DNA of 64,000 bases. Origin: a virus. The position numbers were made by a program, and so were the translations under genes. The stretch covers positions 58,494 through 122,493 of the IMG/VR virus record IMGVR_UViG_3300031539_000005. One strand, given 5' to 3'. This document shows positions 4,265 through 64,000 of the stretch, piece by piece; the stretch's first letter is position 1, and every line of letters starts with the position of its first letter. The notes below the pieces were generated by a model. It saw nothing but the letters and a program-made list of their open reading frames with translations. It did no database searches and was not told where the DNA came from.

Positions 4265-5491
4265 ATGGATGCTGATCTTACCAACTACGGGATAATAGAA
4301 GCTGATGGCGTGAATGATTGTTATTTACAAACAGTCAAGAGTCTTGTTCAATTTGGAGACATAGTTGTTTCAAGAGGAATGGAAACGAAAGAAGTCAGAC
4401 CTGTAGTTCTTATTCTTTCAGATCCTAGAAAAAGATTTTTAACTTGTCCTGGCCGATGGATTAATCCTTATTTTCAGGTAATGGAAGCTATTTGGATTCT
4501 TTCAGGTGGGTCGTCGGTAGAGTGGATTTCTTATTATCTGAAAGATATAGAAAAGTATTCAGATGGAGAAAAAGAATTTCATGCTCCGTATGGAAAGCGA
4601 ATTCGTGATTTTGGGGCTTACCGGGATGCGGTTTATACTCTTCGATCCGTAGTTGGTTATCCCCCCGATCAGTTAAAGAATTGTTTTGACTATCTTGATA
4701 TTGATCCTGATACTCGCCATGCGCTTGTTACACTTTGGAACCCTGCTTTTGACAATATTGGGATGGCTACTATTGATAGACCATGTAATTTTGCTCTTCA
4801 TTTTTTGATTCGCGAATCTGCTCTTCAGCTTACTGTCTATAACAGATCAAACGATATCCACTTGGGATTGTTTAATGCGAATGTAGTACAATTCAGTGTT
4901 ATACTTGAAGCGCTCACTATGTGTCTCGGAAGACCTTTAGGTAAGCAGATTCATTTAATTAATTCTCTCCATTTTTATACAGATAGCCCAATAACATCGC
5001 GAATTTTAGCCGAGGATCTTGAAAAAAGGCCCTTCAGTGTATATGATTACGTTGCTCCTAAGCCTTTTTGGCTAAATTTCAGAAGATATAAAGATCTTGG
5101 TATGAATTATTCAAATTATCAAATTTTAGACATAGAGCTTAAGAAATTTATGGCTCTTGAACAGGCGATAAGAAATGGTGACTCAGAAGAGATTGTGGAA
5201 AACTACACAAGGGAGACTCTGTTCTTTAATTTTCTAATTGATGCAATTTTCTTGGCTCTATCCTATAGAGCTCTTAAGAAAGGGGATTTATCCTTGGCGT
5301 TCATGTGTTTAGATAAGGTTGTGGCAGCCGATATTTTTATTTCTTGTCTTGAATATTTGGTCAGGAAAGGAACGAAGGAGAATTTAATTTCTCCTGAAGT
5401 AATTATTGCAAAAGCTATGATTCATGATCATTTTTCTTTTCTTGGTCCTGAAAAAATAGCTAAAATAGATGAATATATTTTCCATCATTAA
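4265..5491 (+). CDS. thyA: Thymidylate synthase family protein
   Basis: A 408-aa protein starting after GGAGGTAGGTA. It keeps thymidylate synthase landmarks. These are GRWINPYFQVMEAIWILSG near the N-terminus, the RPCN motif with the likely nucleophile Cys174, and the RSNDIHLG phosphate-binding motif. The following FNANVVQ carries the Asn typical of dUMP rather than dCMP enzymes. A SLHFYTD segment matches the later ligand region. About 150 C-terminal residues extend beyond the usual bacterial length of about 264. It likely makes dTMP from dUMP for phage replication. It sits 6 nt before the polymerase gene. Confidence 0.85.
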   Translation: MDADLTNYGIIEADGVNDCYLQTVKSLVQFGDIVVSRGMETKEVRPVVLILSDPRKRFLTCPGRWINPYFQVMEAIWILSGGSSVEWISYYLKDIEKYSDGEKEFHAPYGKRIRDFGAYRDAVYTLRSVVGYPPDQLKNCFDYLDIDPDTRHALVTLWNPAFDNIGMATIDRPCNFALHFLIRESALQLTVYNRSNDIHLGLFNANVVQFSVILEALTMCLGRPLGKQIHLINSLHFYTDSPITSRILAEDLEKRPFSVYDYVAPKPFWLNFRRYKDLGMNYSNYQILDIELKKFMALEQAIRNGDSEEIVENYTRETLFFNFLIDAIFLALSYRALKKGDLSLAFMCLDKVVAADIFISCLEYLVRKGTKENLISPEVIIAKAMIHDHFSFLGPEKIAKIDEYIFHH

Positions 5492-10306: not shown

Positions 10307-10709
10307 TCTTAGATCTAAAGAGTATGGGTTTAGAAACTTCACTTCTTTCGTTTTCACATGCTATTATGGAAACAAGAAATCTGCGGTTGAATGTTCTAGA
10401 ATTCTTAAAGTCGGTAGATTGCGTTTTCATGATGCTTTGGAAAGCAGGGGGTGGCCTATTCGGAATAAAAGTCAGTCTAGTAGATTTGCAAAAAAGCCAA
10501 AAAAAAGAAAGTTGTATATTTATCAGAAGACAAGGATGAGAACTCCTTATATTTTTCCATGGTGCGCTATCCATACATATTATTGGAAATACCTAATGAC
10601 AACTTATGAAGTTGCTAAGGCATTAGGAATTAGCCAGACATCTGTGTTGAAATTAATGAGAATCTATGGCATTAAACGTAGAAATCAGGGGAAGAGGAAA
10701 TTTAGATGA
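10281..10709 (+). CDS. Putative HTH DNA-binding protein
   Basis: A 142-aa basic protein; ATG 10281 lies inside the end of the previous gene with GTGGAG upstream. Residues about 112-138 (TYEVAKALGISQTSVLKLMR) form a classic helix-turn-helix, as found at the start of intron-encoded or regulatory proteins. The centre is Lys/Arg-rich. It may be a regulator or the DNA-binding part of a homing-type protein; no nuclease motif is visible. Confidence 0.65.
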   Translation: MKKLELILDLRSKEYGFRNFTSFVFTCYYGNKKSAVECSRILKVGRLRFHDALESRGWPIRNKSQSSRFAKKPKKRKLYIYQKTRMRTPYIFPWCAIHTYYWKYLMTTYEVAKALGISQTSVLKLMRIYGIKRRNQGKRKFR

Positions 10710-11302
10710 ATAATCTTTTGGATTTTTTAAAAAGAACAAAAAGGATGGCCTTCATTGATAGATGTGCAAATACTCCTCACATTAGACCGTATTCTGTTGC
10801 AGAACATTCTTATTTCATAGCCTTATTTGCAATGTTTTTTGCTGATCTGGAAAATGAAAGGATTTCCAGCGGCCATTTGGTTCTTGAAGAGGATCTGTAT
10901 AATATAGCTGAAGTTGTTAAGAGAGCACTTCTTCATGATCTTGAGGAAAGTGAAACTGGAGATATATTGTATCCCCTTCATCATGAAAATTCTGAACTCA
11001 CAATTGCATTGAACAATATCCGAAAAAAAGTTGTTGAAGAGAGGCTCTTTAATGGACTGTCTGTTATTGTGAGAAATGGCTATATACGTTTATGGAAATG
11101 TTCTAAGGATAATTCAAAAGAGGGCCGGTTAGTTGCTTGCATGGATAAATTTGAAATTCTTATGTTCGCCATTAATGAACTCGATATGGGTAATCATGCA
11201 TTCCGTAGCTTGTATGATAATGCCATAAAAATAATTGATGCTGAGTTTAAAATTCCAACTGTTATGTTCGTCGTGAACGAAATAAAGATTCTTTATAAAT
11301 GA
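10706..11302 (+). CDS. HD-domain nucleotidase (YfbR-like)
   Basis: A 198-aa protein with an HD-domain layout: RPYSVAEHSYFIALFA, then ALLHDLEESETGDI, then CMDKFEIL. This order of His, HD and Asp ligands matches the YfbR-type 5'-deoxynucleotidases. Such an enzyme would dephosphorylate dNMPs and shape the nucleotide pool, which fits with thyA and dnaE nearby. Substrate not provable here. It overlaps the HTH gene by 4 nt. Confidence 0.75.
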   Translation: MNNLLDFLKRTKRMAFIDRCANTPHIRPYSVAEHSYFIALFAMFFADLENERISSGHLVLEEDLYNIAEVVKRALLHDLEESETGDILYPLHHENSELTIALNNIRKKVVEERLFNGLSVIVRNGYIRLWKCSKDNSKEGRLVACMDKFEILMFAINELDMGNHAFRSLYDNAIKIIDAEFKIPTVMFVVNEIKILYK

Positions 11303-50842: not shown

Positions 50843-50855
50843 ATAGAGGTGAAAG

Positions 50856-51146: not shown

Positions 51147-51170
51147 AATGGGGTGGTAGTTGGTTATGCC

Positions 51171-51202: not shown

Positions 51203-51274
51203 AGGCAGTCTGGCTAGGGTCTTTTAGTTGCCCTATTGCCCTATTTTGCCCTTAAATTATTTTTTGGAGGGGTC

Positions 51275-51589: not shown

Positions 51590-51590
51590 C

Positions 51591-51743
51591 ATGAAAGAAT
51601 GGGAACTTGAAAAGAAAAGAAGGAATGCTGGATCCTTTACCCTTATAGTCGTTGTTGGTGCAGGTATAGCTTTTCTTCTACTCGCTATCCCTTGGCTATA
51701 TGGATGTATCCAGATTTTGACTAGGTTTGGAATCCTAAAGTGA
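51591..51743 (+). CDS. Single-pass membrane peptide
   Basis: A 50-aa frame from ATG 51591. A charged start (EWELEKKRRN) precedes the hydrophobic helix LIVVVGAGIAFLLLAIPWLY. Likely an inner-membrane peptide. Function unknown. Confidence 0.6.
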   Translation: MKEWELEKKRRNAGSFTLIVVVGAGIAFLLLAIPWLYGCIQILTRFGILK

Positions 51744-51938
51744 ATGTCGAAGGAAGATCTTAAAAAGGGGTAATCCGCCTACCCCCTAACGAAACCGACT
51801 TTCTATGTATATGTTTTTTTTCTGGGGTCGAGCCTCTAAAAGACCGAACGCTTAAAATGATTCTTTGAAAATGAAATCAAAAAGGACTAGGAGTCTTTGG
51901 ACTAAAGAAAAAAAAGATTTAAAATGCTTTAAAAAAGC

Positions 51939-51967
51939 TTGTATTCCATAGCTCTATGTATTACTAT
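51939..51967 (+). promoter_or_regulatory. Sigma-70-type promoter with shared leader
   Basis: -35 TTGTAT (51939-51944), 17 bp, -10 TACTAT (51962-51967). The following leader (AATACTTAATAA, GGTAAT) nearly copies that after 41,899. Confidence 0.75.
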
Positions 51968-52016
51968 TATGTGCAATACTTAATAAAGGTAATTAATAAT
52001 AGAAGGAGGTAAGGCA

Positions 52017-52415
52017 ATGGAATTTACAAAAAAAGAATTAGATGAGTTGATTGAGAAGTCGGGGATGGAGACAACAATGTCCAGTAGGACAAAGAGTCTC
52101 CAAGTGTATTTCGGTGGTCGGTCTAAAAGGTTTGCTGAAGTCTATTTTGCGGTCAGTAAATCAAGTGTTCCTACTGAGTTAGGAAAGGCCGTTGCTTGTT
52201 CTTTGCTAAATGGATATATGAATGGGCGAATTGGCTTTCCGGGTAGAGTGAATTGTAAACCCCCCTATGTACAAGAGATGAGGGATGTGCTTGCTTTAAT
52301 GACTGATAGTAAGGCGATTTCAAAAGCATTTCCCTTTATGAACGAGGAATCGCTGCGCAAGTGGAAAGAAATGATTGACTTTATAGATAAATATAAACAA
52401 GAAAAGGGAAAGTAA
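52017..52415 (+). CDS. Hypothetical protein, paralogue of 42,400
   Basis: A 132-aa protein behind GAAGGAGGT. VYFGGRSKRF and CSLLNGYMNGRIG align with the 42,400 protein. Its leader resembles that of 41,977, upstream of the paralogue, so a promoter-plus-gene cassette seems duplicated. Confidence 0.75.
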   Translation: MEFTKKELDELIEKSGMETTMSSRTKSLQVYFGGRSKRFAEVYFAVSKSSVPTELGKAVACSLLNGYMNGRIGFPGRVNCKPPYVQEMRDVLALMTDSKAISKAFPFMNEESLRKWKEMIDFIDKYKQEKGK

Positions 52416-52621
52416 TGAAGACAGAACCTGGAGTAAAGTTGCTGATGAAGTTTCGCTTAGACTGGCTGATTGTAAAGGCTAAGGAACTTGGGATCTTGAA
52501 AAGAGAGGGGGTCAGGAAAGAGGAGTTAGCCCGCGAGATCAACAAGGCCCAAGAAAAAGAGCAGACTAGAATTTGGAGAGCAATTGCGGACGGTGGACTT
52601 TCTAAGAGAAGAAAGGACTAA
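52415..52621 (+). CDS. Hypothetical basic protein
   Basis: A 68-aa basic, helical protein whose ATG shares a base with the previous stop (TAATG). DWLIVKAKELGILKREG may be a short helix-turn-helix. Function unknown. Confidence 0.6.
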   Translation: MKTEPGVKLLMKFRLDWLIVKAKELGILKREGVRKEELAREINKAQEKEQTRIWRAIADGGLSKRRKD

Positions 52622-52633
52622 GGAGACAAGGAC

Positions 52634-53179
52634 ATGGATGAGAAAACAAGGACGGAATTGGTAAAGGCAAGCTTGATTGCAGGATTAAAGCTATGGGGAC
52701 TACCGAACACGCGGATGCGACAACAGGATACTAAAATCCAAGACTATGCCAAGAAATTTGGCATTAATCTTAAAGATTTTAGGCCAGTTAAAAAAGGAAT
52801 GATGGATAGCGGCTTGTGTTGGTATTGGGATGAGAAAGGGCGGTATGGCATTGAAGAGAAGAAATTCTCAGAAAGAATATATGCCCAGAGCGAGGCTGTG
52901 GGTTTTGAAGATCTTGAGGAGTGTATGGGCAATTCTATGGTGGATAGCTTTGAATATGTGTTCTGGCCTGATGGTACTGGCTTCACAGGTTTTTCAACAG
53001 AGGACTGTTTGTTGGAGCCTACCCTGCGCTGGACAGATGGTAAGCTTTATACATATTGGGCAGAAGGATTGATCTCCATATATACTATGGATATTAAAAC
53101 AATGGAAGAAGCGAATGTGTTTGTGAAAAAGTTAATAGAGACGAAAGGAGAACTGAATGGAAAGCGCCGAATTGAATAA
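52634..53179 (+). CDS. Hypothetical protein, tandem paralogue A
   Basis: A 181-aa protein. VKASLIAGLKLWG, YAKKFGIN, CWYWDE, FSERI and ISIYTMDI recur in the next gene. Tandem duplicate with moderate identity. Function unknown. Overlaps the second copy by 23 nt. Confidence 0.75.
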   Translation: MDEKTRTELVKASLIAGLKLWGLPNTRMRQQDTKIQDYAKKFGINLKDFRPVKKGMMDSGLCWYWDEKGRYGIEEKKFSERIYAQSEAVGFEDLEECMGNSMVDSFEYVFWPDGTGFTGFSTEDCLLEPTLRWTDGKLYTYWAEGLISIYTMDIKTMEEANVFVKKLIETKGELNGKRRIE

Positions 53180-53657
53180 AGAGGAGATAGTAAAGGCAAG
53201 CCTGATTGGGGGACTCAAGTTGTGGGGACCACCGGCAGGTGATTATGGAGATGCTTTTACCTTATACACAAAGAAGTTTGGAATTAACCCAAAAGATTTC
53301 GGCCCTTCTTACGATAGTGGGCTGATATGGTATTGGGATAATGAATGCCCTATCGCAGAGATAAACTTCTCTGAAAGACTATTGTCTCTAAATGTAAAAG
53401 ATATTCTTGTAAATCCAATGGCTTGCATGGGCAACATCCAGATATCGGAAGAAGAGTATGTGTTTAGACTTGATGGGACTGGTTCTGGAGGCTATGATTC
53501 AGATGAGGAGTTACTAGATCCTGCGCTTCGTTCAGCAGACGGTAAGATGTATATTTATTACATAGAAGGAGCGATAAATATATACAACATGGATATTGGT
53601 TCTAGAGAAGAAGCTTTAGCCTGTATTAAAAAGTTTGTAGAAGAGAATAAGAAATAA
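53157..53657 (+). CDS. Hypothetical protein, tandem paralogue B
   Basis: A 166-aa protein with VKASLIGGLKLWG, YTKKFGIN, IWYWDN, FSERLL and INIYNMDI, matching paralogue A. GTGSGGYDSD differs. Behind AAAGGAGAA. Function unknown. Confidence 0.75.
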   Translation: MESAELNKEEIVKASLIGGLKLWGPPAGDYGDAFTLYTKKFGINPKDFGPSYDSGLIWYWDNECPIAEINFSERLLSLNVKDILVNPMACMGNIQISEEEYVFRLDGTGSGGYDSDEELLDPALRSADGKMYIYYIEGAINIYNMDIGSREEALACIKKFVEENKK

Positions 53658-53673
53658 TAAAGGAGGGAGTTGA

Positions 53674-54045
53674 ATGAAACTAGAGACCTACCGTACTAAA
53701 GCAAACTGGGATCAGAAGCCAAAAGATGATAAAACATGGTGGCTTAGGAGTCATTGTACGCCAGGAACACTGGATGAAAAAGCGATGTGTGCTTTTTGCG
53801 GAGAGACGCACGAAAAGTGTGCCAAGGAAAATACTGAATCAATCAAGGAAAAGCATAAACAGAATTGTGGGGGTAGTGGATTCTGGTGTCCAGGATGTGG
53901 GTTATTCTTTCCCCAAGATACCTGTGGGGAACAAAGTGGCGAAGATTATAAAACACTATCAGGGAAAAGAGTACACCTAGTTAATCTAGTTAGCGGTGAA
54001 AAGTTTTTCTGTCATTGTGGTGAATATTTGTTTGACCTAAAATAA
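53674..54045 (+). CDS. Zinc-ribbon protein
   Basis: A 123-aa protein after GGAGGG. CAFCGETHEKC, then CPGCGLFF, and CHCGEYLF at the end supply several metal ligands. Function unknown. Confidence 0.7.
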   Translation: MKLETYRTKANWDQKPKDDKTWWLRSHCTPGTLDEKAMCAFCGETHEKCAKENTESIKEKHKQNCGGSGFWCPGCGLFFPQDTCGEQSGEDYKTLSGKRVHLVNLVSGEKFFCHCGEYLFDLK

Positions 54046-54066
54046 GAAAAACTAAAGGAGAGGAAA

Positions 54067-54240
54067 ATGGAATGTATATGTGGTGAGGATCTATATTTTC
54101 GTAAGGCGACCTTAATTATGAGCGATAGGAACGTTGCAATTACGAGCCTAATTTGTCCAAAGTGCGGGGCGGCTCATCAACTCACTTATGGTATTCAGGC
54201 TTATGTTAGAATCTTTGACAAAGATGGAAAGGAACTCTAG
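54067..54240 (+). CDS. Small zinc ribbon
   Basis: A 57-aa protein from ATG 54067 after AAAGGAGAGG. CICGEDLYF, then CPKCGAAHQL, give a four-Cys zinc ribbon. Function unknown. Confidence 0.65.
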   Translation: MECICGEDLYFRKATLIMSDRNVAITSLICPKCGAAHQLTYGIQAYVRIFDKDGKEL

Positions 54241-54252
54241 AAGGAGGGAAAA

Positions 54253-54549
54253 ATGGCAGAGATACTTAAATCATGGGAAGAGATAAAGGAAGTTTTTGAG
54301 GTAGGAGCCGAAGAGGTGGAGATTCCGGATGAATATTATCCAGCCGATGAAAATGGGTTTGATGAATCTGAAGTCGCGACTATTATAGCAGATATTAGGA
54401 AATTGAAGCCAGATATTGAAATTTGCCACGAAGAGGATTATATAATAACTTATGTGAAAATTAATTCTCTTGAGGATCACCAAGTAGTTTTTACGGCTCT
54501 AATCCAATCAGTACAAAGTGGTAAATATCACAAAGAAGGAGGAAAGTAA
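54253..54549 (+). CDS. Hypothetical acidic protein
   Basis: A 98-aa acidic protein behind AAGGAGGG. Ends sharing one base with the next start. Helix-strand mix; unassigned. Confidence 0.7.
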   Translation: MAEILKSWEEIKEVFEVGAEEVEIPDEYYPADENGFDESEVATIIADIRKLKPDIEICHEEDYIITYVKINSLEDHQVVFTALIQSVQSGKYHKEGGK

Positions 54550-54752
54550 TGGCAAAGGTAATGGTAGAGATTAATATTCATAATCAGTCTTATGAACAAT
54601 TGAAAGAACTTTTACTTAAGCACCCTGACCCTGGATGGTTTCAGGATCGTGATCCAAGTACTCACCGAGTTGTAATTGATGAAGCATACCTTAACCGTGA
54701 TGCGATGGATGATGATTTCTTTGTGTTTCAACTAATAGGAGTAAGGCCATAA
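54549..54752 (+). CDS. Hypothetical small protein
   Basis: A 67-aa protein with ATG overlapping the previous stop behind GAGGAAAG. No family recognised. Confidence 0.65.
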   Translation: MAKVMVEINIHNQSYEQLKELLLKHPDPGWFQDRDPSTHRVVIDEAYLNRDAMDDDFFVFQLIGVRP

Positions 54753-54781
54753 AGGATAGAAAATAGTAGGAGGATAGAAAA

Positions 54782-55354
54782 GTGAGTATAGAAAAAAGCT
54801 TTGCGAAACTGGGAAGGAATAGGATTGGAGCAAGACGAAAGAAATATCTGTTCGCAGCCTTTGAGATTGCGAAGGGAATAACGGAAAACGAAGAAGATGC
54901 TAAGGCCCTATCAACTTACTATCTCTTCAGGTGGATGGATGGGAACCTGAAGTATTTTGGTGGGATTCTGAGGCTCAAGAAACATCTTAATGCTATTCGG
55001 CTTATTGGGATTTCACTCATGGCAGATGCAGAGTACTTACGGAAGATAAGAACAGGGCAGCTTGAGCGAGCTAAAGAAATAGACTGCCTAACAGAGACGC
55101 GTAAGGCCGAACTTTCTGAAACGGAAACAGCAGAAGGCCGAGGTAGAATGCGGGATAAATATGAAGCAATAGCCCAAGGCCGAAAGACATGGGCCAGAGA
55201 AATGTTACAGGAAATGCATGAGAATCCCGATATGATTGAGGTAAAGATTCGGGACGATCTCCTTTTCTTAAAGAAAAACCCTGGCTGGCAGACTCATTAT
55301 GACAGATTAATTAAATACTTTAATGAGTATGTAAGCCTATCTAAAAAGCATTAA
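54782..55354 (+). CDS. Hypothetical protein, paralogue of 55,444
   Basis: A 190-aa protein from GTG 54782 behind GTAGGAGG. Starts MSIEKSFAKLGRNRIG; DAKALSTYYLFRWMDGNLK and LFLKKNPGWQTHYDRL also match the next gene. A long charged helical middle. Duplicate pair, function unknown. Confidence 0.75.
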   Translation: MSIEKSFAKLGRNRIGARRKKYLFAAFEIAKGITENEEDAKALSTYYLFRWMDGNLKYFGGILRLKKHLNAIRLIGISLMADAEYLRKIRTGQLERAKEIDCLTETRKAELSETETAEGRGRMRDKYEAIAQGRKTWAREMLQEMHENPDMIEVKIRDDLLFLKKNPGWQTHYDRLIKYFNEYVSLSKKH

Positions 55355-55369
55355 AAGCATTAAAAAAGC

Positions 55370-55398
55370 TTGCTTTCTATAGCTCTATGTAGTATGCT
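55370..55398 (+). promoter_or_regulatory. Sigma-70-type promoter
   Basis: -35 TTGCTT (55370-55375), 17 bp, -10 TATGCT (55393-55398), A-tract and GC upstream. Drives the 55,444 copy independently of the 54,782 copy. Confidence 0.8.
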
Positions 55399-55443
55399 GT
55401 ATTTGCCTTTTAAAAAGGTAATTTAATAATGGAGGTAACAAAG

Positions 55444-56004
55444 ATGAGTTTAGGAAACAGTTTTGCGAATCATGGCAGAAATAAGGTTGGGCCGATACGG
55501 CTTGCACATCTTAAAAAAATCTATGAGAATGCAAAGGTTGTGACTGTAACCGCAGATGATGCGAAGGCGCTATCCACTTACTATCTTTTCAAGTGGATGG
55601 ATATGAGTTTAAAACGCTATGAGGGAATGTATATTTGGCGCGAGTTCCTCAAGGCTCAGCGACTTGAAACTCTTTCAGTAGAAAAGTATGCAGCCCTTCT
55701 CCTGAATAACCGTAAGCGGCATCTCCAGGACTGGGCGAGGAATCATCTTCTAAGTGAAGTTAATAAAACAGAATTGGCAGCGTTTGAAAGCGGCACTGGC
55801 CTTGAAGCTGTTAACGAAGAAGTAATGAAGTATGCTACATGGAGTAAGGAATATTCCACAAAGCTTTTGCAAAAGTTTAAAGCTACCCCATCCAAGATAG
55901 ATAAAGCCTTCCAAAATGATATTAAATTCTTAAAGAACCGACCTGGGTGGCTCAAGCATCGGGAAAGACTAATTGCCTGGTTTAATAAGCATACGTTGAT
56001 ATAA
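55444..56004 (+). CDS. Hypothetical protein, paralogue of 54,782
   Basis: A 186-aa protein; ATG 55444 aligns with the paralogue's start (MSLGNSFANHGRNKVG). DAKALSTYYLFKWMDMSLK and IKFLKNRPGWLKHRERL match. GGAGGT precedes. Function unknown. Confidence 0.75.
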   Translation: MSLGNSFANHGRNKVGPIRLAHLKKIYENAKVVTVTADDAKALSTYYLFKWMDMSLKRYEGMYIWREFLKAQRLETLSVEKYAALLLNNRKRHLQDWARNHLLSEVNKTELAAFESGTGLEAVNEEVMKYATWSKEYSTKLLQKFKATPSKIDKAFQNDIKFLKNRPGWLKHRERLIAWFNKHTLI

Positions 56005-56016
56005 CAGTAACCAGAA

Positions 56017-56041
56017 CGTAAGGCGGATTGATTGCCTTACG
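56017..56041 (+). terminator. Possible terminator hairpin
   Basis: CGTAAGGC/GCCTTACG (56017-56024 with 56034-56041) without a T-run directly after. Confidence 0.4.
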
Positions 56042-56212
56042 AACTTATTATGTCAGAAGATCTCTTTTCTTACTTCGAGCCAGATAGTATTGAACGCATG
56101 TGTCTTGATCATAACTTTAAGATATTGCCTCTTCAGGTCTTTAGTCGATTTCCGAGAGACTAAAGCTCTTTAGACTAAGGATAAAAAAGATTTAAAAGAC
56201 TAAAAAAAGAAG

Positions 56213-56241
56213 TTGCACTCACCCCTAATACCTTATATACT
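56213..56241 (+). promoter_or_regulatory. Sigma-70-type promoter
   Basis: -35 TTGCAC (56213-56218), 17 bp, -10 TATACT (56236-56241). The DNA ahead of it (GACTAA...AAAAAAGATTTAAAA) echoes the segment before 51,939. Confidence 0.75.
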
Positions 56242-56275
56242 AAAACAAAAAAAGGCAATATAAGGGGGCGAGGAG

Positions 56276-56455
56276 ATGCAAGATTGGCAAAAAAAACTTA
56301 AAAAGATTAAAAAGCAATTACCCATGCAAAGCTTATCGCAAGAGAGTAAGCGCTTGTCTTATCAGGAAATCGTCACTGAGACGGTTGTAACTGAAAAGCG
56401 TAATGGAGATATAATCCTTAGAAAAAAGGGGTACTCAAATGAAAAAAGAAACTAA
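56276..56455 (+). CDS. Small basic protein
   Basis: A 59-aa Lys-rich protein from ATG 56276 behind GGGGGCGAGGAG, first gene after the 56,213 promoter. Overlaps the next gene by 17 nt. Function unknown. Confidence 0.6.
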   Translation: MQDWQKKLKKIKKQLPMQSLSQESKRLSYQEIVTETVVTEKRNGDIILRKKGYSNEKRN

Positions 56456-56924
56456 AGGCGAAGAGAGAGAAAAAATACGTGATGCAAAAACCCTACGTGA
56501 GCTTGCTAAAGAATATGGGGCAATTGATGATGAGATTGCCAATTTGGATATTTCCTCAGCAGAACAGTTTGGCAAGGTCTTCTCAGATGATGTGGAACTT
56601 GGGAGTTGGTTATCTATGTTGGCTATTAATAGCCCTGCTGATCAAAAGAAAATAGCTAACTGGCTTACTGAGAATATGCCAAAAGATGCTGTTTGTGCGT
56701 ATGATGGAGATGCAGATATTAACTTGCTCGGTACTGATTGGCACGATAAGCTTACTACTACAGAAGCTTTTTCGGTAGGAGATGATAGGCATTATTTTCT
56801 TGGTAGGACAGAAGACCATAATGGTGTGCCAGTCTGTGATTTTGGTTGGGGTTCTTTTTTGGCGAGTGCGCTGACAGTAGCCTATGTATTAAAGAGTGAT
56901 GTAGGTAAACTAAAAGCTAAGTAA
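56439..56924 (+). CDS. Hypothetical protein
   Basis: A 161-aa protein. Charged N-terminus, then mixed alpha/beta; LGTDWHDKLTT and CDFGWGSFLASALTVAYVL at the end. Function unknown. Confidence 0.65.
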   Translation: MKKETKGEEREKIRDAKTLRELAKEYGAIDDEIANLDISSAEQFGKVFSDDVELGSWLSMLAINSPADQKKIANWLTENMPKDAVCAYDGDADINLLGTDWHDKLTTTEAFSVGDDRHYFLGRTEDHNGVPVCDFGWGSFLASALTVAYVLKSDVGKLKAK

Positions 56925-56938
56925 TAGAAAGGAGAAAA

Positions 56939-57355
56939 ATGTTTAGGGACGGTGCAAAATACAATATTGATGATGGCTTAGACCTTATTGAATGGGGACT
57001 ACTAATAACAGACGGAGGGAAACAAAAGCCTGGGTGTATGCGATTTATAATGCACAAAGAGACGAACACATTTATGATCTTGATAACTTTAATCGATGAG
57101 GTTGCTAAAGCGAAACGCTGTTCTTGCGGGGAGCCGTATACTGGTGGAGTGCTAGTCGTAGGAAATGAACATGCCTTTGTAGTTTACGATTGTACTGAGT
57201 GCCGTACGATCACGACAATTCAACAGAAAGAGATTGGGTTCTTCCCTCAACTTGTAAAAGAGCTTATGCATATAGATTGGGATACACTGAGACAGGTAAT
57301 GAGGCCTGGCCTAGATGTAAAGTTAGGGGAAGCCTGGATGAGGGAACTTAAATGA
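56939..57355 (+). CDS. Zinc-knuckle protein, paralogue of 44,668
   Basis: A 138-aa protein behind AAAGGAG. MFRDGAKYNIDD and CSCGEPYTGGVLVVGNEHAFVV parallel 44,668. Ends with extra 10 residues. Overlaps the next gene by 4 nt. Confidence 0.75.
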   Translation: MFRDGAKYNIDDGLDLIEWGLLITDGGKQKPGCMRFIMHKETNTFMILITLIDEVAKAKRCSCGEPYTGGVLVVGNEHAFVVYDCTECRTITTIQQKEIGFFPQLVKELMHIDWDTLRQVMRPGLDVKLGEAWMRELK

Positions 57356-57588
57356 AAGAGGTAAACGTGGAAGAGGTAAGAGAAACAATATTTCAACTGA
57401 ACTTAAGATTAGGGTTAACCTGTAAAGATCATGATTGTAGTGCGGTAAGAATGGCCGCTATTTCTAACGAGCCAGCAGTTGTCTATTATAATAAGAAAGA
57501 GTTAGCGACTATAGGCCATCCAACTATGCCTGATCCTTCTGGCCTGTGCTACTATCATCTAAAGAAGAAACATGGGTTTATAAAGTAG
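57352..57588 (+). CDS. Hypothetical small protein
   Basis: A 78-aa protein with ATGA overlap. CKDHDC and a C-terminal HLKKKHGF; possible metal site. Function unknown. Confidence 0.65.
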   Translation: MKEVNVEEVRETIFQLNLRLGLTCKDHDCSAVRMAAISNEPAVVYYNKKELATIGHPTMPDPSGLCYYHLKKKHGFIK

Positions 57589-57616
57589 TTGAAATGAGAT
57601 AAAGGAGAGGGTAAAA

Positions 57617-57970
57617 ATGGTAACAAATGAAAAAGTAATCAAGGGATTCCTAAATAAAGAAGGAACATCTGATGCAAATACTTATCATGCTTTGCTAAGG
57701 TATGGATGGGAAGCAAACCCCGAAGAGTGCTTGTATGAGGATCCAGAATGGAGAAAGGCTAATCCTACTGCGTGGTTCCATCCTTTTCTTCATGAGAACC
57801 TACCCGGAGTGAAGATTGTAGTATTTAACGGAGGGGGAATTTGTATCTTAGCCGGTGGAGGAAATATTGGCCGAAAAGAAGTCGCTGCTGAGGAAGTATC
57901 TGGAACTTTAGAATTATTGAATGTACTTTCTCAAGCTATTGAGGTTGGGGGGAGAGATGATAACGAATAA
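57617..57970 (+). CDS. Hypothetical protein
   Basis: A 117-aa protein behind AGGAGAGG. N-terminus TNEKVIKGFLNKEG resembles that of the next gene. GGGICILAGGGNIGRKE suggests a strand-turn region. Function unknown. Confidence 0.65.
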   Translation: MVTNEKVIKGFLNKEGTSDANTYHALLRYGWEANPEECLYEDPEWRKANPTAWFHPFLHENLPGVKIVVFNGGGICILAGGGNIGRKEVAAEEVSGTLELLNVLSQAIEVGGRDDNE

Positions 57971-58154
57971 AGAAGTAATTAAAGGACTACTAAAAAGATA
58001 TGAAGGTCTTAAAGTAGAAGATCTCAGCGCTAAGAATCCTTTATATAGTTGCGTAATTTGTACAAAGATGGAAGAATGCGGATATCCTGAAGGCTGCTGC
58101 GAAAAGGCTACACACTGTGATCCTGAGGTATTCGCAAGGAGAAAAGGGAAATGA
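57957..58154 (+). CDS. Hypothetical small Cys-rich protein
   Basis: A 65-aa protein; ATG 57957 follows GGGGGGAGAG. TNKEVIKGLLKRYEG matches the previous gene's start. C-terminal CVICTKMEECGYPEGCCEKATHC is a dense Cys cluster. Function unknown. Confidence 0.65.
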   Translation: MITNKEVIKGLLKRYEGLKVEDLSAKNPLYSCVICTKMEECGYPEGCCEKATHCDPEVFARRKGK

Positions 58155-58450
58155 ATGAGAAAAAAAGAGAGCAGGAAAGAAGGTTAAATGAGTTAATGAT
58201 TGAATTCGAGAAGCTAGTTAAGAAAGCTATTCTTATAAAGATATGCCTTTCTTTTGCTATTGGTTCTGCTGCCAGTCTTATACTATCTTTCATTACCCAT
58301 AATTATGCTTTTCTATTCTTTGCTATAGTCTTCTTTCTTGGAGGTAAGCTGGCTGAAGCTTATTACGAAAAACTAGGTCCTCTCGGGGAGAGTCTTGTAA
58401 ATAACTGGAAAAATGATGACTATGTAAAGAAATATAAAGATGATGAATAA
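58151..58450 (+). CDS. Two-helix membrane protein
   Basis: A 99-aa protein with a charged start, then two hydrophobic helices (AILIKICLSFAIGSAASLIL and FLFFAIVFFLGGKL). Likely inner membrane. ATGA overlap with the previous gene. Confidence 0.65.
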   Translation: MNEKKREQERRLNELMIEFEKLVKKAILIKICLSFAIGSAASLILSFITHNYAFLFFAIVFFLGGKLAEAYYEKLGPLGESLVNNWKNDDYVKKYKDDE

Positions 58451-58682
58451 AAAAATGACGAATAGCGACTGTGTAGGCTGTGGATATTGTTGCTTGAAAG
58501 CAATGTGTTCAACTGGAATAGGATTCTATGGTCGTAGTGTAGAGCGATGTCCTTATTTGATTTGGATTGAAGATAAGTATAGGTGTCAGTTAGTCCTTGA
58601 TAATAAAGCCAAAGTCGCGACTGGATTTGGGTGTTCTTCTAGTCTAAACAGTTGGAGACAGGATGTTAAATTCAGAGGATAA
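58440..58682 (+). CDS. CxxCxxCC-type protein
   Basis: An 80-aa protein with CVGCGYCC, then CPYL and CQLV, like the protein at 50,856. ATG 58440 is one of three closely spaced starts. Function unknown. Confidence 0.65.
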   Translation: MMNKKMTNSDCVGCGYCCLKAMCSTGIGFYGRSVERCPYLIWIEDKYRCQLVLDNKAKVATGFGCSSSLNSWRQDVKFRG

Positions 58683-59487
58683 AGGCTCTTCTCTCTATCC
58701 AGAAGCTCTGTTCTAGTCCTCTATATCTTCAAGATCTGAAGTTAGACCTCATTTCTAATCCCCCCCTCTCTTCATTCCCTTCTCCTTATTCCCTATATTC
58801 CTCTAGAATAATATCTTTGATATTATTAAGCCGAAGAGAACATCCCCTTTAATCTCCTGCTTATTCATCGTATTGGTCACAGTTATAGGGTATATCTCAA
58901 TCTCTATTCTCTCTTCTCTTCTTCTCTTCAATTCTCTCCATCTTAAATCTTAATTCAAGAAGAAAAGAAACCAATATCGACGAAGGGAATGGAGATGTCA
59001 CTCTGTCTGTCCGTACGGAAAAGCTAATGTTTATGGTGACGATCAAAGATCAAAAGTCATGTCTCCTTAAATTGACTAAGAATGTTTATGCCCCTTATTG
59101 AAAGTCCCCGATCTGAGATCAATCTGGAACTATACTGAGAGACTTACTTTCTGTTTATCGACCAGCGATCGATAATCCCAGATCTAAAGGACAGATTACG
59201 AGAGAAAAACATTAAATGCTTAATGTGCTTTACTTGCTCTTTTTAGAAACAAGTTCCAAGGGGGTATACCGGCAATACACAAAATTTCTGTTAAATGCCT
59301 GTAATCACTCTCTTCTTTTGAAAAGGGGTTTTTTCAAATATTGGATCAGTCGGGAAGAATGAAATTGTCCTCTAAGGACAAGACTGGGATTATGCTTTTT
59401 TGTCTAAAATTGGATCAAAAATCGGGAGGCATGATCGAAGATCAAAGATCGGGAGGAATGGGGCCTAAAAAAAATTTAAAAAAAGGC

Positions 59488-59516
59488 TTGCAATCGATGT
59501 ATCCATGTGTTATGCT
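59488..59516 (+). promoter_or_regulatory. Sigma-70-type promoter of candidate sRNA
   Basis: -35 TTGCAA (59488-59493), 17 bp, -10 TATGCT (59511-59516), A-tract and GC upstream. Confidence 0.8.
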
Positions 59517-59522
59517 TATTAT

Positions 59523-59610
59523 GCTTTTAAGTTAGGTTTATGCTTTACCCATGTCTTAGCTTGAAGCACCGCTGTCGGTAGTTTTACCCCTGACTACCGG
59601 CAGCATTTTT
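59523..59610 (+). ncRNA. Candidate small RNA
   Basis: A near-consensus promoter ends at 59,516 and a strong terminator lies at 59,571-59,612, with no ORF between. The predicted transcript is about 90 nt, half of it the terminator stem. No known sRNA family recognised. Confidence 0.6.
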
Positions 59611-59612
59611 TT
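59571..59612 (+). terminator. Strong rho-independent terminator
   Basis: 12-bp stem GCTGTCGGTAGT/ACTACCGGCAGC (one G-U), 10-nt loop, then ATTTTTTT. Confidence 0.9.
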
Positions 59613-59871
59613 GTTAAGGGCAGCGATGATCTCAGATTGAAGATCTCCCTCAGATCGAATAATGATCCAACCATTTACTAAATCATCTCTCGAGTCTCTC
59701 TTATACGGAACAAAAGTCTTTTTCCTATCATTCTATCTCAGAAAAGAACTTAAATTTAAGATTTAGTTTAACTTTTACAAGAACTCTAGATCTTGGATCC
59801 AGAACCCTGGTTTTCACAGTCGATATCAGATTTAAGGATCTAAACTATTTTTAAATCAATGCTTTTTATGC

Positions 59872-59900
59872 TTTACTTCCTTATGTCCACGTGTTATGCT
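59872..59900 (+). promoter_or_regulatory. Sigma-70-type promoter for 60,008
   Basis: -35 TTTACT (59872-59877), 17 bp, -10 TATGCT (59895-59900), about 107 nt upstream of the start. Confidence 0.7.
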
Positions 59901-60007
59901 TTAAGTGCTTAAAGGGTAATAGAAATGAAAAACTTAACAGCAGAACTTTTTAACTTTTTATCAACCTGTAGACTTGCGGTTAACATTCTAAGATAAGGGG
60001 ATTTAAC

Positions 60008-60568
60008 ATGGGTAAGATAAAGCCTAAGAAGATAGAGGCAAAAGCGGCAAAGGAAAAAGTTGTAGCTAGTCCTATTGCTGAAGTGCATGTTTTCAGTAAT
60101 AAGCTGCATCCATTTACAGCACCTATTACACTGAGCGGCAAGGTAGTAGATCTGGATGTAAACAAGGTGCATAGGGTAAATGTTGGGAATCTGGATATGC
60201 TGAGTCCAACATTGCAAACCTTGTTCACAGAACTTAACACAGATGCGCTGCCCAAGTACGCTCGCTATGGGTATACTCAGGCACACAGGCAAACTTTCGG
60301 TCTTTGTTTAGCCAGTGCTCACAGCAAGAGTTTTAAGGGTATTGTCATGTATCATGGAGTTTTTGCAGGGCAGATGCGCATTGCCTTCAACAACACAACT
60401 CAGGGATTGTTTGCTACCCAGGCACAAAAAGTCCTAGAAGGGGCCAAAGATGTTGTAGTCTATCCCTTTAAGACTTACTGCTTTGTAGCCTTTAAAGAAA
60501 CTGCCCTACCCGTGATCGTAAGCACTTGTAAGAAAGTGCTTGGCATGGCCGGTAATCCTAAAGAGTAA
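60008..60568 (+). CDS. Paralogue 1 of the GA/TC pair
   Basis: A 186-aa protein behind TAAGGGG. Basic N-terminus (KIKPKKIEAKAAKEK), then a domain with PITLSGKV, TPLQTLF-type helix, GYTQAHRQTFGLCL, VMYHGVFAGQ and YPFKTYCFVAF. Unrecognised. It carries twelve Asp/Glu and normal GA/TC use. A terminator follows. The homologue at 61,171 is about 60% identical by eye. Confidence 0.85.
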   Translation: MGKIKPKKIEAKAAKEKVVASPIAEVHVFSNKLHPFTAPITLSGKVVDLDVNKVHRVNVGNLDMLSPTLQTLFTELNTDALPKYARYGYTQAHRQTFGLCLASAHSKSFKGIVMYHGVFAGQMRIAFNNTTQGLFATQAQKVLEGAKDVVVYPFKTYCFVAFKETALPVIVSTCKKVLGMAGNPKE

Positions 60569-60584
60569 CAGTTCCTCCTAAGAA

Positions 60585-60622
60585 AAGCACTGTGCAAGAT
60601 TCACCGCATGGTGCTTCTTTTT
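60585..60622 (+). terminator. Rho-independent terminator
   Basis: 11-bp stem AAGCACTGTGC/GCATGGTGCTT (G-U pairs), 10-nt loop, then CTTTTT. Confidence 0.8.
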
Positions 60623-60895
60623 ATCCCCCCCCCTATATCCATATACCCATATAGAAAGAAAGTTTCTCTTCTGGGATTTAAGATCTTTGATCATCTCTCG
60701 ACTCCGGTATAGACCGACCAATATTTCTTTTCTTATCATTCATTCGCAGAAAAGAGATTAAGTCTTAGATCTTCACTATGAATCTTTTTTAGAATCATAC
60801 AGAATTAGGTAGATCAAAGATCTTTGATCTTCTCGACTCCCATATTAACTGACCAAAAAGGCTCCTTACTCTCGGGACGCGAGGGAAAAGATCGT

Positions 60896-60923
60896 ATACC
60901 ACTTTGTAACATACCACTATGTA
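60896..60923. repeat. ATACCACnnTGTA motif, left pair
   Basis: ATACCACTTTGTA (60896-60908) and ATACCACTATGTA (60911-60923), 15 bp apart. They mark the left edge of the GA/TC-depleted island. Matching copies, one inverted, are at its right edge. Confidence 0.6.
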
Positions 60924-60980
60924 GTATAAGGCAAAAAAACAAGAAATAAGCTTTTAAATTTTATTTTTTGCTTTTTTTGC

Positions 60981-61009
60981 TTGCAATTGCTTTTTTAAAA
61001 GCTTATAAT
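60981..61009 (+). promoter_or_regulatory. Consensus-like promoter inside the island
   Basis: -35 TTGCAA (60981-60986), 17 bp, -10 TATAAT (61004-61009). No GA or TC in it. Drives 61,171. Confidence 0.8.
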
Positions 61010-61052
61010 GTTTTTTATGCTTAATACATTAAATATGTTTTATATGCTTTTT

Positions 61053-61081
61053 TTGGCATTACAATTGCATTACATTATATA
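61053..61081 (+). promoter_or_regulatory. Second possible promoter for 61,171
   Basis: -35 TTGGCA (61053-61058), 17 bp, -10 TATATA (61076-61081). The TTGGCAT...CAATTGCA core recurs at 62,073. Confidence 0.45.
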
Positions 61082-61170
61082 CATGTTTACACCTAAACTA
61101 AAAACTAAAACTTGTAACTACTTAATAACCTGTAAAGCGCAGCTAACAATTTAATAAAGGGGTTTTAATT

Positions 61171-61785
61171 ATGGGTAAAGCAATAGTACCAAAAAAAATA
61201 AGGGCAAGGGCAAGCACTGTGCAAGGCAATAATATTGCGCAAGTGCATGTATACGCTAACAAAGTTAACCCATTTAACGCGCCAATTACTTTAAATGGTA
61301 AAGTAGCACAATTGGCAGTAAACAAAGCGCACAATGTTAATATAAGCGCTTTAGACCTGTTAACGCCAACACTGCAAACCTTGTTTACTGCGCTTAACAG
61401 TGCAAGCTTGCCTAAATACGCGCATTTTGGGTATACACAAGCGCATAGGCAAACGTTTGGCCTATGCCTAACCAGTGCGCACAGTGCAAGCTTTAAGGGC
61501 GTTATAATGTATCACGGTGTATTTGCAGGGCAAAATAAAATAACGTTTAACAATACTGCGCAGGGTTTATTTTGCACACAAGCACAAGCACTGTTTAGCG
61601 GTGTAAACGATGTTGTTGTATACCCATTTAAAACCTATTGCTTTGTGGCATTTAAAGCAAGTGCATTGCCCACTGTGCTTAAGGTATGCAATAAGGTTTT
61701 AGGTATTAGTAACAAAGCAAGCGCAGTGCCTACTGTGCAAGTACCTACTGTGCAAGTACCTACTGTGCAAGTGCCTACTGTATAG
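61171..61785 (+). CDS. Paralogue 2, GA/TC-purged gene
   Basis: A 204-aa homologue of the 60,008 protein with no Glu and only two Asp. All Ser codons are AGY, Leu CTC, Phe TTC, Ile ATC, Val GTC and Gly GGA are absent. Where the paralogue has acidic residues, this one has Gln, Ala, Arg or Ser. The C-terminus adds a four-fold VPTVQ repeat from a 15-bp tandem repeat. The ribosome site is AAAGGGG. Function unknown; same as paralogue 1, presumably. Confidence 0.85.
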   Translation: MGKAIVPKKIRARASTVQGNNIAQVHVYANKVNPFNAPITLNGKVAQLAVNKAHNVNISALDLLTPTLQTLFTALNSASLPKYAHFGYTQAHRQTFGLCLTSAHSASFKGVIMYHGVFAGQNKITFNNTAQGLFCTQAQALFSGVNDVVVYPFKTYCFVAFKASALPTVLKVCNKVLGISNKASAVPTVQVPTVQVPTVQVPTV

Positions 61786-61799
61786 GCAAACAATAAAAC

Positions 61800-61842
61800 A
61801 AGGTACCATGTAAAGCATATTAAACATGGTACCTTATTTTTT
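61800..61842 (+). terminator. Rho-independent terminator free of GA and TC
   Basis: 11-bp perfect stem AAGGTACCATG/CATGGTACCTT (61800-61810 with 61825-61835), then ATTTTTT. Confidence 0.85.
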
Positions 61843-61871
61843 ATACACATAAGCCCGATTTTATACACTAT

Positions 61872-61908
61872 TGCCCATTTTTGCACACAAGATGCCCATT
61901 TTTGCACA
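61872..61908. repeat. Iteron-like direct repeat
   Basis: TGCCCATTTTTGCACA occurs at 61872-61887 and 61893-61908, 21 bp apart, i.e. two helix turns. TTTTATACACTATTGCCC precedes. Could be a protein-binding iteron pair or a duplicated operator. Confidence 0.5.
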
Positions 61909-62072
61909 TAGTATGTATAAATTACAACACACATAAAACAAGCGCTTTTGCTTTTGCCCTTGCTTTGTATAGGGTATATAGTTAGAAGCTTGCTATGGCG
62001 CTATTAGATGCCTTTAAGCGCTTGTTTAGCAAGCGCAGTGCCTATAGTATAAAGCGCTTAAAACAAAAATTT

Positions 62073-62102
62073 TTGGCATAGCAATTGCAGTGTATGTATA
62101 GT
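62073..62102 (+). promoter_or_regulatory. Possible promoter for 62,142
   Basis: -35 TTGGCA (62073-62078), 18 bp, -10 TATAGT (62097-62102), similar core to 61,053. 40 nt ahead of the start codon. Confidence 0.5.
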
Positions 62103-62141
62103 ATGGGTTTTAATGCTAACATAAAAACAAGGGGTTTTAAA

Positions 62142-62267
62142 ATGGTAAGCTTAAAAAAATTTTTTGTTGCGCTTGTTACTTTGTTAATGCCTAAACAACA
62201 ACCAGTGGTTACTTATAACAGTTTACGTTATGCTAACTATACGCAAAAGCGCGTATACAAAATTTAA
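62142..62267 (+). CDS. Small basic protein in the island
   Basis: A 41-aa protein from ATG 62142, ribosome site AAGGGG. SLKKFFVALVTLLMPKQQ looks amphipathic; ends RVYKI. No Asp or Glu. Function unknown. Confidence 0.6.
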   Translation: MVSLKKFFVALVTLLMPKQQPVVTYNSLRYANYTQKRVYKI

Positions 62268-62287
62268 TTACAAGGGGCTAACATACT

Positions 62288-62413
62288 ATGTATAATAAAG
62301 CAAATATAACACCTAAAGCAAGCGCAGTACCTACAACACAATGGCAAGCGCTTATAATACTAACTAAACAATACAACATGCTTTATTGTTTTGCAAATAG
62401 CATTAAATACTAA
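62288..62413 (+). CDS. Small protein in the island
   Basis: A 41-aa frame from ATG 62288 behind AAGGGG. KASAVPTTQ echoes the C-terminus of the 61,171 protein (KASAVPTVQ). No Asp or Glu. Function unknown. Confidence 0.55.
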   Translation: MYNKANITPKASAVPTTQWQALIILTKQYNMLYCFANSIKY

Positions 62414-62420
62414 TACTAAC

Positions 62421-62467
62421 TTATACCACATTGTAGTATTACTAATTTGTATTACAATGTGGTATAA
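62421..62467. repeat. 15-bp inverted repeat, right copies of the edge motif
   Basis: TTATACCACATTGTA (62421-62435) and its exact reverse complement (62453-62467), 17 bp apart. Contains ATACCACATTGTA in both orientations, matching 60,896-60,923. It can form a hairpin and may be an operator or module boundary. Confidence 0.6.
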
Positions 62468-62671
62468 CTAACTAGTAACTAACTTTTAACAAATACAAAG
62501 TGAATTGTTTACATATATGCACAAAATTTTTTTGTGTAAAAGTGGGTTAGGAGACTCTCTTCTAATTCCATGATGAAAAATTTCAGATAAAGCATTTTAA
62601 GCAAATTAAACTTTGTTTAATACATTAAAAGCATATTAAGCTATGAAAATTTCAGAGAAAATTCGGAGATG

Positions 62672-62708
62672 AAAAAAAAGAGGGGATGCCTAAAAATGGC
62701 TCCCCCTC
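62672..62708 (-). terminator. Rho-independent terminator for the radical-SAM gene
   Basis: On the minus strand GAGGGGGAGCC pairs with GGCATCCCCTC (two internal mismatches), 7-nt loop, then T8. Confidence 0.65.
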
Positions 62709-62739
62709 AACTTATTCTACTCTCGATATTATGTTTTTA

Positions 62740-63615
62740 CTATCCGTTTTTAAGAGCGCAGATAGTATTCGCAGCATTTGCCGCAGCTTGTGTGAATTTC
62801 AAGGCATCATCAGATTTGATGTCACCCGTGATTTTATCCGCAAGGACTTCAATCGCCTTAACCAATCTCCACACCGATTTCCCTATAGGTCGCCCTTTTA
62901 TTCTAAACCCCTGCGGACAAACTGTAGCCATTCCATCCGGAAAGATCCACAACGCCTTCAATGTTATACATCTACGATTACAGCCATCACACGCCCTTCC
63001 CCTATTCCTTTGTATGCCAGTGTAACGAAACTGGATGTCATGCCTGTAGACGTTCATCAATTTTATTCCCATATTTTCAGCCCAGATATTAAACAACTTA
63101 TGATACTTTGCAGAACCATAGAAATTGGAGAAAATTTTTACAGAAAAGAAGGGCGAATAAAGATCGATGATTTTCTCAGAATTCTCAAAATCGGTTTCGT
63201 TCGCGACAACATAAACTACTTGATCGAATTCTCGAAGAGAGGATATTAGGTTAAGATTGGGAGAGAAGACATGAACTTTAAAACAGTTCACGAATGGATA
63301 GGCTTCAGGAAGGAGGGCGGTTCCGTTCGTGTTCACGAAGACCCGAGCTCCTAGTTCATGAGCGAAACGAATTATAGAAAGGAAATCGGGATGTAGACCA
63401 GGTTCTCCGCCGCTTATGTTCACGATAGGATGGTCTATTACAGAGGTATAGGCTGAAATAGCCTGAATTGCGATTTCTGTAGGGAGATAATCTGAGCCAG
63501 GTTCTTGAAAGTCGTTTAAGCAATACTCACAACTTCTGTTACAATCGTTCGTTAAGAGAACTCTTAAACGGAATTCATCTTTATGAACCTCTTTATTAAA
63601 GACAGATTTTATCAT
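62740..63615 (-). CDS. Radical SAM protein
   Basis: A 291-aa protein with CNRSCEYC (Cys25, Cys29, Cys32), the CxxxCxxC Fe-S motif, then ISGGEPGLHP and VNTNGT. A C-terminal CDGCNRRC, then CPQGF, suggests a second cluster as in SPASM-like enzymes. The substrate is unknown. The 10-nt gap to the upstream small gene suggests they work together. Overlapping plus-strand frames here are shadows. Confidence 0.85.
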   Translation of the reverse strand: MIKSVFNKEVHKDEFRLRVLLTNDCNRSCEYCLNDFQEPGSDYLPTEIAIQAISAYTSVIDHPIVNISGGEPGLHPDFLSIIRFAHELGARVFVNTNGTALLPEAYPFVNCFKVHVFSPNLNLISSLREFDQVVYVVANETDFENSEKIIDLYSPFFSVKIFSNFYGSAKYHKLFNIWAENMGIKLMNVYRHDIQFRYTGIQRNRGRACDGCNRRCITLKALWIFPDGMATVCPQGFRIKGRPIGKSVWRLVKAIEVLADKITGDIKSDDALKFTQAAANAANTICALKNG

Positions 63616-63625
63616 TTTTTTCTTT

Positions 63626-63856
63626 CTAATTTTTTTCTTTCCAATATAGATTTATAGCTTCGATGAACTCATCATGAACCTTTTGGGCTTCTTCAAGTGT
63701 TCGATATGAAAAATATTCAAAAACTTGAGAAGTGTATTTAAATCCCCAAAACCAATAATCTAGTTCTTTTTCAACTCCATACACATTTTGAACATGAAGA
63801 AGAACAGCATGATACCCTTCAATTTCAAATGTTGCTAATGATTCTTTTTTACTCAT
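63626..63856 (-). CDS. Small protein upstream of radical SAM gene
   Basis: A 76-aa protein, aromatic-rich (LDYWFWGFKYTS). Beta strands then a helix (EEAQKVHDEFIEAINLY), so more like a folded partner than a leader peptide. Its ribosome site and start codon lie in the first unit of the 22-bp tandem repeat. Function unknown. Confidence 0.7.
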   Translation of the reverse strand: MSKKESLATFEIEGYHAVLLHVQNVYGVEKELDYWFWGFKYTSQVFEYFSYRTLEEAQKVHDEFIEAINLYWKEKN

Positions 63857-64000
63857 AATATCCTTTTATTACTCTCATAATATCCTTTTATTACTCTCAT
63901 AATATCCTTTTATTACTCTCATAATATCCTTTTATTACTCTCATAATATCCTTTTATTACTCTCATAATATCCTTTTATTACTCTCATAATATCCTTTTA
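63851..64000. repeat. 22-bp tandem repeat running off the window
   Basis: About 6.8 copies of ACTCTCATAATATCCTTTTATT from 63,851 to the end. Each unit, read on the minus strand, holds AAAAGGATATTATGAG, a ribosome site plus ATG. The first unit provides the real start of the 63,626-63,856 gene. Confidence 0.85.

Follow-up and report, generated by a model that had tools for sequence, protein, structure and literature searches.

In phage T5, the pre-early region, which is the first to enter the cell, is free of restriction sites, and TC-specific cytosine deaminases of the DddA type, which act on double-stranded DNA, are expected to leave only TC>TT and GA>AA changes. Other phages modify their own bases in a sequence-specific manner. 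CAjan carries dPreQ0 at GA/GGC (PMC8306585), and for Iggy-type phages a single GA motif for dPreQ0 is given in the title of an article cited in two papers (PMC11945000, PMC11008142). In phages M6, ViI and PhiW-14, hypermodified T occurs in a TG/TC motif and is linked to resistance (PMC6449724).

Here we describe an island of phage DNA from which GA and TC have nearly vanished. As in T5 and other cases of restriction-site avoidance, a short motif is avoided locally around presumed early genes; unlike those cases, the motif has only 2 nt, it is avoided almost throughout a stretch of 1.66 kb, a protein is altered, and first entry is an assumption. With the action of DddA-type deaminases the island shares the dinucleotide and the involvement of both strands, but its outcomes are mixed. 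M6, ViI and PhiW-14, as well as the 5hmU phage SPO1, have a dUMP hydroxymethylase related to a protein of this phage, and the TC within the modified motif of the former three is the very word that the island avoids. M6, ViI and PhiW-14 differ from this phage in that they show neither a GA/TC nor a TS desert, and the helical domain of 5hmU DNA kinase was not found here.

The GA/TC-depleted island

The window, that is, the whole stretch of DNA analysed, makes up the right-hand 64 kb of a viral record that is 122,493 bp long (IMGVR_UViG_3300031539_000005). Contig L003, from another metagenome in IMG/VR, matches it at 99.97% across positions 50008-63949 and runs past the window end, where it reaches genes resembling those of a 5'-3' exonuclease and a terminase; this indicates a tailed phage with a genome of about 135 kb or more. 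Where the record ends there is a 22-nt tandem repeat (ACTCTCATAATATCCTTTTATT, 63850-64000), which L003 spans. Elsewhere in the window, at 47001-48600, GC rises to 0.51 in a genome of 37% GC, and two minus-strand ORFs lie among plus-strand genes; this may be an insertion.

The original prediction held that a protein, P2, had been bent to avoid GA/TC. The observation is genuine and bigger than claimed: the avoidance covers 1.66 kb, for which base composition would give 186 GA/TC and in which 9 are present (observed/expected 0.05, versus 1.15 in the remaining window). The effect is order-specific, with AG/CT at 0.90 in the island and 1.16 in the remaining window. The surviving sites are eight GA and one TC, and we call the depletion symmetric. 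The longest stretches without GA/TC measure 495 and 411 nt inside the island and about 59 nt outside it in the known genome, which has no second GA/TC-poor island and is otherwise normal. In none of 121 contigs from unrelated viruses and bacteria (1.05 Mb) did a 500-nt window fall below 0.38. Coding and noncoding DNA of the island are depleted alike, including about 90 nt 5' of the promoter-like site of P2. Synonymous shuffles and the noncoding depletion rule out chance or protein composition, and an assembly artefact is ruled out by L003, which carries the same island and differs from the record near it by a single base, in a T run. The island contains the following features:

60893..62550, no strand: GA/TC-depleted island, from dinucleotide counts; same in L003
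60896..60927, + strand: two copies of ATACCACWWTGTA at the left island edge, from sequence
60981..61009, + strand: promoter-like TTGCAA-17-TATAAT upstream of P2, consensus match only
61171..61785, + strand: P2, a 204-aa basic protein with C-terminal VPTVQ repeats
61795..61840, + strand: inverted repeat followed by a T run, likely P2 terminator, from sequence
61872..61913, + strand: 21-nt repeat in two tandem copies that begin TGCCCATTTTTGCACA, immediately preceded by a degenerate third
62073..62102, + strand: promoter-like TTGGCA-18-TATAGT upstream of ORF X, consensus match only
62142..62267, + strand: ORF X (MVSLKKFF...), 41 aa, no GA/TC, AAGGGG motif resembling a ribosome-binding site upstream
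62267..62296, + strand: promoter-like ATTACA-18-TATAAT overlapping the ORF Y start, consensus match only
62288..62413, + strand: ORF Y (MYNKANITPKASAVPT...), 41 aa, no GA/TC, AAGGGG motif upstream
62423..62466, no strand: two inverted ATACCACWWTGTA copies, a hairpin near the right island edge, from sequence

The AAGGGG that precedes P2, ORF X and ORF Y is itself a GA-free ribosome-binding-like site. Under synonymous shuffling, 13.5 GA/TC would be expected in the ORF after P2, where there are none. The three top promoter-like matches of the region all fall in the island on the + strand; the total number of matches is not above that in shuffles. The 21-nt repeat was not found elsewhere in the phage, and an Rfam scan of the region returned nothing above the gathering score. 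Searches for relatives through the edge motif, the 21-nt repeat and a 20-nt repeat gave chance matches only, none with a GA/TC desert, and searches through the neighbouring genes (radical SAM, CobT-like) found none close enough in IMG/VR.

Duplication and recoding of P2

Upstream of the island lie a paralogue of P2 and two stretches of related noncoding DNA:

59682..59845, no strand: noncoding DNA preceding P1, the first of the two duplicated copies
60008..60568, + strand: P1, 186-aa paralogue of P2 (67% identity), near-normal GA/TC
60690..60859, no strand: noncoding DNA preceding P2, rich in GA/TC and homologous to 59682-59845

The two noncoding copies, both rich in GA/TC, align with a local score of 42, compared with 15.6 ± 2.8 and a maximum of 30 in 500 shuffles. 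This homology indicates that P1 and P2 are the product of a tandem duplication made in this lineage. The GA/TC depletion begins at 60893, within the second duplication unit. Duplication in place, with the left boundary of the depletion in the second copy, makes it less likely that a block already free of GA/TC was imported, although the island DNA may have been replaced by recombination. Since no homologue that could give the ancestral state was found beyond this phage (IMG/VR, GTDB genomes, INPHARED, PLSDB, Pfam, PHROGs and PDB), we infer the direction of change, from P1-like to P2-like, from the genome-wide norm and from the GA/TC-rich homologous DNA upstream of both genes. P1 is itself mildly poor in GA/TC (46 against 56.5 expected, z -2.3), and on that account could be a copy relaxing from depletion.

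From synonymous shuffling, 50 GA/TC would be expected in P2; the gene has 3 (z -9.2), and two of the three lie inside two Asp codons common to P1. Its codon choice is correspondingly narrow: all 12 Phe codons are TTT, Ser is always AGY, Ile never ATC, Gly never GGA, Arg only AGG, and the stop codon is TAG. Our recount of acidic residues agrees with the numbers first put forward, namely 12 in P1 (5 Asp and 7 Glu) and, in P2, two Asp, both conserved with P1, and no Glu. Ten of the P1 residues have an aligned partner in P2; two Asp are retained and eight residues are replaced (E>R, E>Q, D>Q, D>A, E>A, D>A, E>S, E>A), so that Arg, Gln, Ala and Ser, the substitutes originally named, are the only ones. 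Acidic residues were replaced more often than others (8/10 versus 51/171; Fisher P=0.002). The net charge (K+R-D-E), which it had been suggested to model, is +12 for P1 and +15 for P2.

Classification of the substitutions in the P1/P2 alignment also bears on their cause. None of the eight replaced acidic residues became Lys or Asn, and among the 39 GA/TC sites of P1 altered in P2, 11 are GA>AA or TC>TT. The sites changed in every direction, to GC, AA, TT, TA, CC, CA, GT, AG, AC, TG and others. A cytosine-deamination scar at TC is thus ruled out, as the original prediction had argued. Its preference for selection on the dinucleotide is borne out insofar as the protein was recoded along with all flanking noncoding DNA and with a non-deamination spectrum; it is qualified insofar as a mutational process with many outcomes could, formally, do the same.

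The AlphaFold model of P1 has a mean pLDDT of 45 and a fold search gave no match at E<=0.001, and we claim no fold. By eye, KTYCFVAF in the C-terminal half of P1/P2 resembles RNP1 of an RRM, the structure model being poor.

Several further features of the region are recorded here. Counting both strands, 60893-62550 has 19 copies of AAGCGC/GCGCTT, against 1.6 predicted from dinucleotide content, and the related 20-nt repeat AAAGCAAGCGCAGTGCCTAC has copies in P2, ORF Y and noncoding DNA. GATC is abundant in the noncoding DNA at 58684-60007 and 60569-60892 (25 against about 10 under a first-order Markov model), and these flanks are the opposite extreme to the island. The P1/P2 alignment, with flanking bases also compared, lends no support to a derivation of GCGC from GATC. 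Finally, 59480-59615 may hold a small RNA gene, with a promoter-like TTGCAA..TATGCT, no ORF and a strong terminator hairpin at 59571-59604.

Candidate modification genes and the Iggyvirus desert

Two genes in the window are relevant to base modification:

4265..5491, + strand: dUMP-hydroxymethylase homologue of the TS family, putative source of 5hmU
10706..11302, + strand: YfbR-like 5'-deoxynucleotidase, compatible with dTMP removal

The best match of the 4265-5491 protein is SPO1 gp29 (33% over 85%, E 3e-52), annotated in its record as dUMP hydroxymethylase. Homologues from M6, ViI and PhiW-14 follow at E 2e-21 to 5e-18 and that of T4 at 5e-7, and in PDB a CMP hydroxymethylase outscores every thymidylate synthase. 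A warning applies, as dUMP hydroxymethylases are hard to distinguish from thymidylate synthase by sequence (PMC5977210). Taken together, the hydroxymethylase homology and the YfbR-like deoxynucleotidase suggest that the phage probably carries 5hmU or a derivative in its DNA.

Other modification genes were sought with less success. The A5 profile of DpdA, positive for 4/4 controls, gave no match in the two contigs G000 and G001, the genome being incomplete and a DpdA2-type enzyme possible. Pfam TGT was dropped as a test for DpdA because of its insensitivity (it missed 7/7 DpdA phages). QueC, for preQ0 synthesis, is absent from G000, and some phages use host preQ0. The helical domain of 5hmU DNA kinase (PF18723, HMUDK_hel) is likewise absent from G000, an incomplete genome in which other kinases are possible. 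A PfkB-family kinase adjoining a nucleotide-sugar epimerase (28767-30782) makes these candidate genes for DNA or surface sugars.

A second desert came to light when DpdA phages were used as controls. At about 59900-60628 of Iggy (MN029011; L076:9900-10628), 500-nt windows drop to 0.15 for GA/TC, with AG/CT at 0.7-0.8. This desert is noncoding and lies between divergent genes, its core is gene-free in the PBPA162 annotation, and it is common to Iggy, PBPA162, Pa-X and Knedl (including L143, L152 and L153). Pairs of these phages differ by 33-36 substitutions in the 620-nt core, and these create 0-1 new GA/TC where about 11 would be expected; none of 2000 trials with randomly placed substitutions was as low. 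The same substitutions show no deficit of new AG/CT, CA/TG, AC/GT or GG/CC and a weak one of AA/TT. These data are direct evidence that the Iggyvirus desert is under active selection against GA/TC, in a phage reported, according to the title mentioned above, to be GA-modified. The desert is possibly undescribed, as a limited literature search located no earlier description.

The Iggyvirus desert resembles the island in its local, order-specific depletion of GA/TC on both strands, and offers independent evidence that the dinucleotide can be locally selected against. It differs in being about 620 nt long with a noncoding core, in its milder GA/TC ratio (0.14-0.27 versus 0.05) and in that its phage encodes DpdA. 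Vibrio phage CA8 (MN102376, L212), also DpdA-positive, has about 870 nt of noncoding DNA (about 46650-47500) with GA/TC at 0.27-0.5 and near-normal AG/CT. Among the other DpdA phages (CAjan, 9g, NP1, MMDA13, MiCath, BcepGomr and JenK1), no desert was as strong. Low windows in R7M and one in Iggy were rejected as part of a low-complexity gene for a ssDNA-binding protein or similar coding repeats, and the 39.3-kb run in Iggy was rejected as a repetitive Ala/Pro linker-like stretch.

Alternative explanations and a possible role

That one base order is avoided on either strand, whether or not the DNA is coding, suggests that what is recognised is the double strand, as with modifying enzymes. The explanation that we consider best, with confidence just short of an even chance, holds that GA/TC-directed base modification is kept off the island so that this DNA can serve as a plain template. 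Phage DNA would be modified at GA/TC, either as hypermodified T in TC or as modified G or A in GA, and avoidance on both strands would keep 1.66 kb unmodified, with its promoters, ribosome-binding sites, P2, two 41-aa genes, repeats and terminator. Host RNA polymerase and regulators could then use the island like any unmodified DNA, for instance as soon as it has been injected, making it a small, self-contained three-gene expression unit for which we propose early expression. Dinucleotide selection would have recoded P2 wherever the protein tolerated it, and the loss of eight of ten comparable acidic residues would be a by-product. We infer three elements of this explanation: that the phage DNA is modified, that GA/TC is the motif of the modification, and that an unmodified template is the selected property. 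In its favour are the published use of GA and TC in modification motifs, the dUMP-hydroxymethylase homologue, the deserts of Iggyvirus and CA8, and the promoter-like and GA-free ribosome-binding-like sites of the island. Counting against it are the missing DpdA and 5hmU-kinase domain here, the lack of a desert in M6, ViI and PhiW-14 and of an equally strong one in the other DpdA phages, the difficulty of telling a dUMP hydroxymethylase from thymidylate synthase, and the gene-free core of the Iggyvirus desert.

The main rival, which we regard as unlikely, is that a host nuclease, a CRISPR system with the 2-nt PAM TC/GA, a deaminase or a similar agent attacks GA/TC, and that the site-free island survives to express P2, ORF X and ORF Y, which protect the GA/TC-rich remainder. 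The T5 pre-early region would be a parallel, and several features would suit such a zone: three genes that form an autonomous unit, with its promoter-like sites and its tiny ORFs that are orphans, order-specific and strand-symmetric avoidance, and a P2 and paralogue without known relatives. However, the core of the Iggyvirus desert is noncoding, clearing nearly all sites singly requires an attack on each, first entry of the island is only assumed, and we know of no nuclease or PAM that uses exactly GA/TC alone. Import of the island from a replicon with wholly GA/TC-free DNA, followed by incomplete drift to the phage norm, is more doubtful still. It would account for the sharp boundaries, for ATACCACWWTGTA at both edges and for a block unlike the remaining genome, but the tandem duplication includes GA/TC-rich upstream DNA, with depletion beginning within the second unit, and neither a relative nor a GA/TC-free donor was found among phages, plasmids, IMG/VR and GTDB. 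The combination that would mark a foreign element, breakpoints unrelated to resident sequence together with a donor, was not found.

Two further readings do without selection on a DNA dinucleotide. Targeted damage at GA/TC with error-prone repair could produce many outcomes locally, and both the diversity of changes at these positions and the two kept Asp codons, which resemble purifying selection against such a process, are in keeping with it. It is nonetheless improbable: the process would have to be confined to 1.66 kb and, within it, to strike either strand and coding as well as noncoding DNA almost completely; the single-change spectrum of a cytosine deaminase is excluded; and Iggyvirus substitutions avoid newly made GA/TC. 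Alternatively, transcripts might shun GA and UC owing to an RNase or RNA-binding protein, as the GA-free ribosome-binding-like sites and a possibly mostly transcribed island would allow. This we consider very improbable, as the DNA upstream of the P2 promoter is depleted too, equal loss of GA and UC is not required by selection on RNA, and AG/CT is unaffected.

To return to the explanation of the island as an unmodified template, its extension to other phages is held to be somewhat less likely than not: islands free of the modification motif may be a general device of phages with sequence-specific base modification, strong enough to alter a protein. A regulatory stretch in Iggyvirus and a whole three-gene unit here would then stay chemically plain within a hypermodified genome. 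In a limited literature search we found no described counterpart to a near-complete loss of a 2-letter word over 1.66 kb that strips a protein of acidic residues. The Iggyvirus case makes the idea testable in cultivable Pseudomonas phages in which, to judge from the cited title, the modification has already been mapped. If it is true, motif-free islands could predict unknown modification motifs from sequence alone, and if the island must stay unmodified, a plain stretch of genome is the price that the phage pays for its base modification.
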